From positions 1 through 45,978 of the forward strand of contig JAPPHZ010000028.1 in NCBI GenBank assembly GCA_028820935.1: DNA of 45,978 nucleotides, written 5' to 3'. The notes beneath the pieces are model-generated. The model was not told where the DNA came from. It did no database searches and saw only the letters and a list, made by a program, of their open reading frames with translations. Both the position numbers and the translations under genes were made by a program. Origin of the DNA: a bacterium. GTDB lineage: Bacteria > Actinomycetota > Acidimicrobiia > Spongiisociales > Spongiisociaceae. Shown piece by piece: positions 16,213-37,294 of this stretch (its first letter is position 1; each line of letters opens with the position of its first letter).

Positions 16213-16533
16213 ATGCCCCCTCTCGACTGGATCGGAGTCGTCACCCTCTTCGGCATCGCCGTGAGCATCAACTGGTGGGTGGTCAAGAGCTACTCCGACC
16301 GGATGGAACGGCGCTTCGATCAGCAGGACGCTCGTTTCGACAAGCGCTTCGATGGGCAGGACGCTCGTTTCGGCAAGCGCTTCGATGGGCAGGACGCCCG
16401 TTTGGATCGGCAGGAGAGGCGTTTGGAGAGGCTGGAGACCTTGATGCTCAGTCTCGTGCGCGACGTAGGCCTGCTCATGGGCGCGATGGGTATCTACCCT
16501 GCCGCCAAGGCGAAGGCCGGCTCCGGGGAGTAG
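16213..16533 (+). CDS. Small membrane-anchored coiled-coil protein (family member 1)
   Basis: 106 residues: one membrane helix (about 5-25), then a charged helical region made of near-identical 11-residue units (RFDKRFDGQDA type, residues 36-64), then a leucine-containing helix. The repeat is also visible in DNA as 33-bp direct repeats (about 16327-16393). AGAAAGGA eight bases before the ATG at 16213 decides the start; TACACT lies about 24 bases upstream. It resembles the genes at 31429 and 32311 in size, layout and the RFD-x-QD heptads. Function is unknown; oligomerisation at the membrane is inference. Confidence 0.7.
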   Translation: MPPLDWIGVVTLFGIAVSINWWVVKSYSDRMERRFDQQDARFDKRFDGQDARFGKRFDGQDARLDRQERRLERLETLMLSLVRDVGLLMGAMGIYPAAKAKAGSGE

Positions 16534-19301: not shown

Positions 19302-19805
19302 CTAGACGCGCCCGGCTCGGCGCCAGGGCCAGTACCGGGCCACCACTCTCGAGTGGACGCTCGGGCGCCGGATCGGTCCGAGCGTCCGGCTGTCGGCCGA
19401 AGAGTCGGCCCGGTTGTCGCCCAGGACGAACCAGGAGTCGGATGGCACGACCCACTCACCTTCGGGACGGGTGGCGGCGTGCCACCACGGATCCACGGCC
19501 GGCCGGCCCCCGATCATCAGCACACCACCCTCGATGCCGACCGTCTCGCCGGGCATGCCGACCACCCGCTTGATCATGTAGCGTCCACCAGCCCGGAAGA
19601 TCATGACGTCCCCCCGGGCGAGCCCCGTCCGTTCCCACGCCCGATCCGTCATCAGATGGTCCCCCGGCTCGATCGCGGGCATCATGGAATGGTCCGCCAC
19701 CCGGAAGCGGCGGTAGCGGGACATCAGCACCCTCGAGAGCACGGTCGAGGCAAGTCCGGTCAGGGCAATGATGCTCCGGCGGGCACGGCGCCTCCAGGGA
19801 CTCAA
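19302..19805 (-). CDS. sodX: Nickel-SOD maturation protease (signal peptidase S26 family)
   Basis: 167 residues. N-terminal membrane segment (about 11-28), then the S26 catalytic pair: Ser40 (DHSMMPAIEPGD) and Lys79 (MIKRVVGMPGE), with the conserved GDNRADSSADSR near the end. It lies divergently next to the NiSOD gene, and in actinobacteria this short S26 peptidase (SodX) cleaves the SodN propeptide so that His1 can bind nickel. A general signal peptidase I would be larger. The start is a TTG at 19805 without a strong ribosome site; a slightly different start is possible. Confidence 0.85.
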   Translation of the reverse strand: MSPWRRRARRSIIALTGLASTVLSRVLMSRYRRFRVADHSMMPAIEPGDHLMTDRAWERTGLARGDVMIFRAGGRYMIKRVVGMPGETVGIEGGVLMIGGRPAVDPWWHAATRPEGEWVVPSDSWFVLGDNRADSSADSRTLGPIRRPSVHSRVVARYWPWRRAGRV

Positions 19806-19896
19806 GGCGCGAGAGCGGGTAGGGGCTGCATTAACGGGACACCGATGAGTGTATTGTCTCCCTCATCCGGTAACCACCAGACCCGAGGAGATGTTC

Positions 19897-20313
19897 ATGG
19901 GGATTCTCGCACCATCCAGGCAGGCCCACGCCCACTGCGACCTGTTCTGCGGCGTCTACGACCCGGCCCAGGCCAGGATCGAAGCCGAGTCGGTGCTCCA
20001 GGCCGCCAACAAGTACCACGGGAGCGATGACGAGGTGTTCCGCAGCCGTTGCATCGCGGTCAAGGAGGCGCAGGCCGAGCTGGTGAAGCACCACCTGTCG
20101 GTGCTGTGGACCGACTTCTTCAAGCCGCACCATCTGGAGCAGTTCCCGGAGCTGCACAATCTGTTCTGGAACGCCATCAAGGCGGCCGGCGACGCCAAGA
20201 AGTCGACCGATACGGCCGTGGCAGAGGATCTCGTGGCCCAGATCGAGGGCATCGCTGAGGTCTTCTGGCAGACCGCGGAGTCGGCCAACGTGGGGCTGTA
20301 CCCGCCCTCCTGA
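19897..20313 (+). CDS. sodN: Nickel superoxide dismutase precursor
   Basis: 138 residues. A 12-residue propeptide (MGILAPSRQAHA) precedes the Ni-hook, so the mature protein would begin HCDLFCGVYDPAQARIEAESV minus its last residue or so. It dismutates superoxide in the cytoplasm using nickel bound by His1, Cys2 and Cys6. The hook consensus is HCxxPCxxY; here position 5 is Phe (TTC) instead of Pro, while all metal ligands are kept. GAGGAG at 19885-19890 favours the ATG at 19897 over the one at 19891. sodX lies divergently 91 bases away. Confidence 0.95.
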   Translation: MGILAPSRQAHAHCDLFCGVYDPAQARIEAESVLQAANKYHGSDDEVFRSRCIAVKEAQAELVKHHLSVLWTDFFKPHHLEQFPELHNLFWNAIKAAGDAKKSTDTAVAEDLVAQIEGIAEVFWQTAESANVGLYPPS

Positions 20314-31428: not shown

Positions 31429-31836
31429 GTGACCGCGCAGTTCGTTGATTGGGGAACACTCCTCACGCTGCTGGGTCTGCTGGGCAGTGTCGTGGGTCTG
31501 GCGGTGGGGCTCCTCTGGCGTGCGATAGCCGCGCAGATGAAGATGCTGCACGAGCGCTTCGACAAGCAGGACGGGCGTTTCGACAAACAGGACAACGACA
31601 TGGCTGAGTTGAGGTCGGACGTGGGGGAGTTGAAGACGGACATGGCAGTGGTGAAGAACGATCTCGGGCATGTGAAGAACGATCTCGGCCAGCTGAGAGA
31701 CGATTTTGGCCATCTCCGGTCTCGCTACGATCGGATGGACGACAACATCGTCCAGATCATGCGCGACCTCGGTCGGTTGGAGGGCGGGCAGCGGAGTGCC
31801 TCCCCGAAGGAGAAGATCGGCGCCGGCGGCTCGTAG
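31429..31836 (+). CDS. Small membrane-anchored coiled-coil protein (family member 2)
   Basis: 135 residues: membrane helix (about 9-33), then a long heptad-rich coiled coil (about 36-115) with RFDKQDGRFDKQD and repeated VKNDLG units, ending PKEKIGAGGS. GAAGGAGAG six bases before the GTG at 31429 and TAGAAT at 31401 support the start. The C-terminal KIGAGGS matches KVAAGGS of the broken copy at 36981-37294, and both begin M-x-x-Q-x-V-D, so they are paralogues. Function unknown. Confidence 0.72.
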   Translation: MTAQFVDWGTLLTLLGLLGSVVGLAVGLLWRAIAAQMKMLHERFDKQDGRFDKQDNDMAELRSDVGELKTDMAVVKNDLGHVKNDLGQLRDDFGHLRSRYDRMDDNIVQIMRDLGRLEGGQRSASPKEKIGAGGS

Positions 31837-36980: not shown

Positions 36981-37294
36981 ATGGATCCGCAGCTAGTTGA
37001 CTCTAGAGCCTCTCTTGGCGGCTCTGTCGTTCATACTGGGCTTCCTCTGGCGCGCGATGGCGAGGCTCACGCGGCGTCTTGACCAACAGGGGGAAGGCCT
37101 TGGCGGTGGTGAAGGCGGATGTGGCCGGGTTGAAGGAGGGTCAGGCTGGCTTGCAGAAGGATGTGGCCGACCTGAAAGCGAGTCAGGCTCGGATGGGCGA
37201 CACCCTCCTCCGGACAGTCGGCGATCTCGGTGAGGTCAAGGGTGAGTTGAAGAGGATTCGCCCCAGGGAGAAGGTCGCGGCCGGCGGTTCGTAG
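36981..37294 (+). pseudogene. Frameshifted coiled-coil gene (paralogue of 31429)
   Basis: The ATG at 36981 (GGAGTGG just upstream) gives MDPQLVD, like MTAQFVD of the intact paralogue. The membrane helix then continues in the next frame (LLAALSFILGFLWRAMARL), and after a GGGGG run near 37090 the coiled coil continues in a third frame (VVKADVAGLKEGQAGLQKD), ending PREKVAAGGS. So at least two frameshifts separate conserved segments. A sequencing error at two sites cannot be excluded, but decay is simpler. Confidence 0.75.

Follow-up and report, generated by a model that had tools for sequence, protein, structure and literature searches.

In nickel superoxide dismutases (NiSODs), the metal is held by the N-terminal amine, the amide of Cys2, two thiolates and the imidazole of His1 (PMC11273360, PMC12933891). 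The N-terminal stretch that carries these ligands, the Ni-hook, is still quoted as a conserved signature of the family in the form HCXXPCXXY (PMC12933891), that is with a proline at position 5 of the mature chain, and the cyanobacterial hook, published as HCDGPCVYDPA, likewise has Pro at that position (PMC2234264). The second shell has been described as well: the structure of the S. coelicolor enzyme shows the imidazole of His1 in contact with Glu17 and Arg47 from a neighbouring subunit (PMC12933891). The role of the hook proline is debated. Calculations on model peptides have used a trans Leu4-Pro5 bond (PMC5722923), and a cis-prolyl biomimetic has also been made (Tietze et al. 2010, as referenced by PMC8910529). 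The strings HCDLFC, HCDLMC and HCDLYC gave no match in the literature that was searched, most subscription NiSOD papers being outside its scope, and nothing on the activity, metal content or structure of a NiSOD with Phe, Met or Tyr at position 5 was found there.

The window, by which we mean the whole stretch of 45,978 nucleotides that was analysed (an acidimicrobial contig, JAPPHZ010000028.1, of a marine-type actinobacterium), contains a sodN gene whose product has phenylalanine where the published motif has proline (Table 1). The protein is a full-length match to the Pfam family Sod_Ni (138 bits against a cut-off of 25) and scores 149.2 bits with the NCBIfam equivalog profile TIGR02753 (cut-off 90). 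The start codon and the preceding GAGGAG region are conserved in the alignment of the nearest relatives; the propeptides of the relatives are variable and mostly end in xA/HCD. The mature chain would thus start at His1 (position 19933) with HCDLFCGVYDPAQA, and after the predicted cleavable propeptide the nickel ligands His1, Cys2 and Cys6 as well as Tyr9 are all present. Both these features, the Phe at residue 5 and the intact ligand set, had been pointed out in the preliminary description of the locus and are confirmed by the sequence and the alignments. Two further active-site changes relative to the Streptomyces enzyme had escaped it, namely Tyr62 to Phe and Arg47 to Gln. The genome has a single Sod_Ni match, and a search of the same genome with the Sod_Ni profile yielded no second SodN of the Pro type.

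Table 1. Features of the sodN locus (positions in the window).
Feature	Position	Strand	Remarks
S26 signal-peptidase-like gene, divergent from sodN	19302..19805	-	Pfam PF10502, 88 bits; TIGR02227, 93 bits
AGTGTATTGTC, conserved element upstream of sodN	19848..19858	+	candidate -10 region
Shine-Dalgarno-like GAGGAG of sodN	19885-19890	+	
sodN, nickel superoxide dismutase precursor	19897..20313	+	138 aa plus stop codon; Pfam PF09055, TIGR02753
sodN start codon ATG	19897	+	
SodN propeptide MGILAPSRQAHA	19897..19932	+	12 residues, in-frame; A/H junction before His1 (from sequence)
Ni-hook HCDLFCGVY	19933..19959	+	CAC TGC GAC CTG TTC TGC GGC GTC TAC
Phe5 codon TTC	19945..19947	+	proline in the motif; from sequence; fixed in the genus
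Gln47 codon CAG	20071..20073	+	Arg47 in S. coelicolor (alignment)
Phe62 codon TTC	20116..20118	+	Tyr62 in S. coelicolor (alignment)
sodN stop codon TGA	20311-20313	+	reading frame intact up to here

The structure predicted for the window protein (AF2, mean pLDDT 91.5) has the four-helix NiSOD fold. The fold search returned NiSOD chains only at E-values below 0.001, the best PDB matches having TM-scores of 0.82-0.86, and identity to the S. coelicolor enzyme is about 52%. The closest solved structures are Streptomyces NiSODs, with Pro5 in the two alignments shown, and the structures among the NiSOD matches found comprise only these Pro5 enzymes, without a Phe5, Met5 or Tyr5 form. Since the hook is modelled with a pLDDT below 50 both in the window protein (residues 1-5) and in a Pro5 homologue (residues 1-6), the prediction is silent on hook geometry.

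To place residue 5 in a wider perspective, 236 distinct mature SodN sequences, almost all from Actinomycetota and including the S. coelicolor reference, were aligned. Position 5 is occupied by Pro in 108, Phe in 67, Met in 40 and Tyr in 21 of them, and by nothing else, while positions 1, 2, 3, 6, 9, 11 and 14 are invariant; over a set of 307 sequences H1, C2, C6, Y9, P11 and A14 are likewise without exception. As Pro5 is missing from 128 of the 236 otherwise standard sequences, it is no defining feature of the family. The window's own genus is uniform in this respect: each of its ten genomes has the Phe5 hook, and a Pro5 hook is absent from all of them. Among 80 related loci, collected with the window protein as query and a pattern that included the hook, and therefore biased, nearly all Acidimicrobiia have Phe5 (codon TTC or TTT), many Nitriliruptoraceae have Met5, and Phe5 is also found in three environmental mycobacteria (species of Mycolicibacterium and Mycobacterium). 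Because of the bias in the hook-containing pattern, SodN was also sampled by profile. In a phylum-wide sample of 396 genomes a match was present in 108, and the 107 proteins read have Pro in 68 cases, Met in 25, Tyr in 11 and Phe in 3. A class sample of 296 genomes gave matches in 170, of which a chosen part was read, so that the class counts do not represent an unbiased census. In a second phylum, centred on a Dehalococcoidia genome, 103 of 400 genomes have SodN, and the 71 distinct proteins that were read all carry Pro5. Within the sequences sampled, the Pro-less hook is thus limited to the Actinomycetota. One genome from the same taxonomic order as the window possesses two SodN genes, both Met5, which lie on two contigs. 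The preliminary description had regarded Phe5 as an exceptional variant, a view that an alignment rich in Phe would overturn. This view does not survive the comparison within the genus, the order and the class, where Phe is common and belongs to a large Met/Phe/Tyr5 clade; phylum-wide, with three Phe among 107 sampled Actinomycetota proteins, Phe itself is indeed infrequent.

In a tree of the 307 sequences, from which columns 5, 47, 62 and 64 had been left out, all non-Pro forms fall into one clade of 135 sequences (SH-aLRT 87), which also holds seven Pro forms. By parsimony, the distribution of Pro and non-Pro requires two changes, Pro having been lost once and, as it appears, regained once. 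The window protein lies in a sub-clade of 97 sequences (support 97) that have Phe62 without exception and of which 66 carry Phe5, 21 Tyr5, 3 Met5 and 7 Pro5. The seven nested Pro forms are probably the P5/F62 sequences from the phylum that contains the Dehalococcoidia, and possibly reflect gene transfer accompanied by a regain of Pro. SodN proteins with both Pro5 and Phe62 were observed at five loci of that phylum. An earlier tree of 236 sequences implied more changes; in a careful tree of 70 sequences the deep branches are weak and some Met5 forms are scattered, which makes the order of the changes tentative. A single origin of the Pro loss is therefore, on these trees, likely but not firm. 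Relatives of the window protein were absent from the phage records and viral contigs searched and were found in two plasmid records only, on which grounds a mobile origin was rejected.

Various explanations can be put forward for a hook that lacks its proline. That Phe5 would represent a sequencing or assembly error in a single codon is so improbable that it can be disregarded: the residue recurs, encoded by TTC or TTT, in ten genomes of the genus and in many others. A second, independent assembly record for this species-level sequence and nine further genus genomes have the same TTC amid other synonymous differences, and an error was ruled out since independent genomes carry the same residue. 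A degenerate or impaired enzyme, in which the loss of Pro5, Tyr62 and Arg47 would represent active-site decay under relaxed selection, could account for the fact that three positions near the active site differ from the Streptomyces enzyme. We nevertheless hold decay to be highly improbable. The reading frame is intact and the neighbouring gene conserved, all ligands and Tyr9 are invariant, the replacements at position 5 are confined to Phe, Tyr and Met, and there is no Fe/Mn superoxide dismutase that could act as a replacement. In addition, the 12 nearest relatives, compared in pairs, have a median dN/dS of about 0.09, which indicates that purifying selection on sodN is strong in this group; a pseudogene, or decay of the gene, was rejected on the basis of this ratio and of the conservation.

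Two other explanations accept a functional protein and differ in the weight they give to the replacements. There is about an even chance that the variation reflects neutral drift, i.e. that position 5 just requires a hydrophobic residue and that Pro, Met, Phe and Tyr are interchangeable there. The repeated swaps between Phe and Tyr and the changes from Phe to Met inside the clade fit such drift, as do the unaltered ligands, whereas the retention of Pro5 in 71 of 71 SodN of the second phylum and throughout those Actinomycetota that lie outside the clade does not, nor does the absence of Leu, Ile and Val, which are only one base away from Phe or Met codons. Alternatively, the changes might be adaptive, an explanation we consider rather unlikely. 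In that case the loss of the Leu4-Pro5 bond would act jointly with the aromatic side chain at position 5, with Phe62 and, in some members, with Gln47 to alter the access of the substrate, the supply of protons or the redox tuning. What speaks for it is that position 62 shows the strongest association with position 5 of all columns in the 236 sequences: Phe62 accompanies Phe5 in 66 of 67 cases and Tyr5 in 21 of 21, and Tyr62 accompanies Pro5 in 100 of 108 and Met5 in 37 of 40. Moreover, Lys64, kept in 105 of the 108 Pro5 and in all 40 Met5 sequences, is missing from every Tyr5 form and from some of those with Phe5 (the window protein retains it), and Gln47 is found in 26 of the 236 sequences, 24 of which have an aromatic residue 5. 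The link between residues 5 and 62 is not a strict one, however, since the combinations P5/F62, M5/F62 and F5/Y62 all exist, and the association is, as judged from the sequences, mostly due to shared ancestry with very few independent changes; a test on independent pairs contained only two supported pairs and had no power. Tyr62 of S. coelicolor was reportedly mutated together with Tyr9 by Herbst et al. in 2009, the mutants being said to retain considerable activity. Somewhat doubtfully, and as no more than a tentative proposal, we suggest that one actinobacterial NiSOD lineage lost the hook proline and subsequently changed Tyr62 to Phe (and Arg47 to Gln in the genus of the window), and thereby acquired a hook with no prolyl bond and a changed proton or anion gate. 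If this holds, the lineage that combines Pro loss, Phe62 and Gln47 would show, as an experiment of nature, which residues of the second shell NiSOD catalysis requires.

Regardless of how the replacements arose, we are confident that the window gene encodes a working cytosolic NiSOD of an actinobacterial lineage with a Pro-less Ni-hook, as its sequence and those of its relatives suggest. In the proposed mechanism, the propeptide would be removed, probably by the divergently encoded S26 peptidase, after which His1 would coordinate nickel through its imidazole and the freed N-terminal amine, Cys2 through its amide and thiolate, and Cys6 through its thiolate, in the same way as in Streptomyces. 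The side chain at position 5 would space the hook loop and form part of its wall; as it is no ligand, nickel binding should persist in the Phe5 form, as the preliminary description had stated, and we infer that this form is active as well. Residues 5 and 62 may have changed in concert because each of them would face the substrate pocket. No Fe/Mn superoxide dismutase was found in the genome (97% complete), and the only other superoxide dismutase found is of the Cu/Zn type (locus L218, contig C18) with a lipoprotein-type signal sequence at its N-terminus. SodN is consequently, in terms of gene content, probably the sole cytosolic superoxide dismutase of this organism.

In the case of the peptidase, the evidence consists of position and class, on the grounds of which it is probably the SodN maturation protease, in the role of SodX. 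The protein matches the signal peptidase I model TIGR02227, and a second, stronger signal peptidase I is encoded elsewhere in the genome. With the SodX model TIGR02754 it scores 27.5 bits, under the cut-off of 63.25, and the coverage of this peptidase group by the SodX model may be incomplete. The divergent arrangement of peptidase and sodN, a conserved neighbourhood such as is expected of SodX, was found at 101 of 109 Phe5 loci and at 75 of 115 Pro5 loci. Between the two genes, the element AGTGTATTGTC is identical in ten out of ten aligned relatives while its flanks diverge, and it is probably a promoter or operator, possibly the -10 region of the sodN promoter. Elsewhere in the window, a 33-base tandem repeat (positions 16311-16403, 2.8 copies) lies within an open reading frame that has repeated RFDxQDAR motifs, and similar arrays with a 21-base unit are present at positions 31550-31712 and 37110-37176.

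The above implies that Phe5 is, in the light of the alignments, the normal state of a lineage and not a one-off, and that the textbook motif is too strict: for Actinomycetota, HCxxPCxxY is better written as HCxx[PFYM]CxxY, and motif-based searches that demand Pro5 will miss real NiSODs. The preliminary description had also stated that hook geometry depends on the proline, which is hard to maintain given the size of the Met/Phe/Tyr5 clade and the strong purifying selection on the gene. As the Pro-less lineage is large and conserved, its existence shows, as far as comparative evidence goes, that evolution needs no prolyl bond between Leu4 and residue 5; the change of Pro5 might alter catalysis. 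The value of the finding accordingly lies in a correction of the motif and in a testable set of linked active-site substitutions, i.e. natural Pro5-less enzymes that can be used to test the contribution of the prolyl bond, Tyr62 and Arg47 to nickel loading and catalysis.

Compared with the NiSODs of S. coelicolor and S. seoulensis (1T6U, 1Q0D), the window protein has the same fold and shares His1, Cys2, Cys6, Asp3, Tyr9, Glu17, Lys64 and Lys89, but differs in having Phe5 for Pro5, Phe62 for Tyr62 and Gln47 for Arg47. Other Acidimicrobiia have SodN proteins that resemble it in their aromatic residue 5, in Phe62 and, in some of them, in Gln47, as do environmental mycobacteria such as Mycolicibacterium vaccae, although the mycobacterial proteins have Thr64 where the window protein has Lys64. 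The Met5 proteins of Nitriliruptoraceae and other Actinomycetota share the non-Pro hook (HCDLMCGVY) and belong to the same clade of 135 sequences, but have retained Tyr62 in 37 of 40 cases. The cyanobacterial NiSODs, finally, have the Ni-hook ligands in common with the window protein and differ from it in carrying Pro5 and Gly4.
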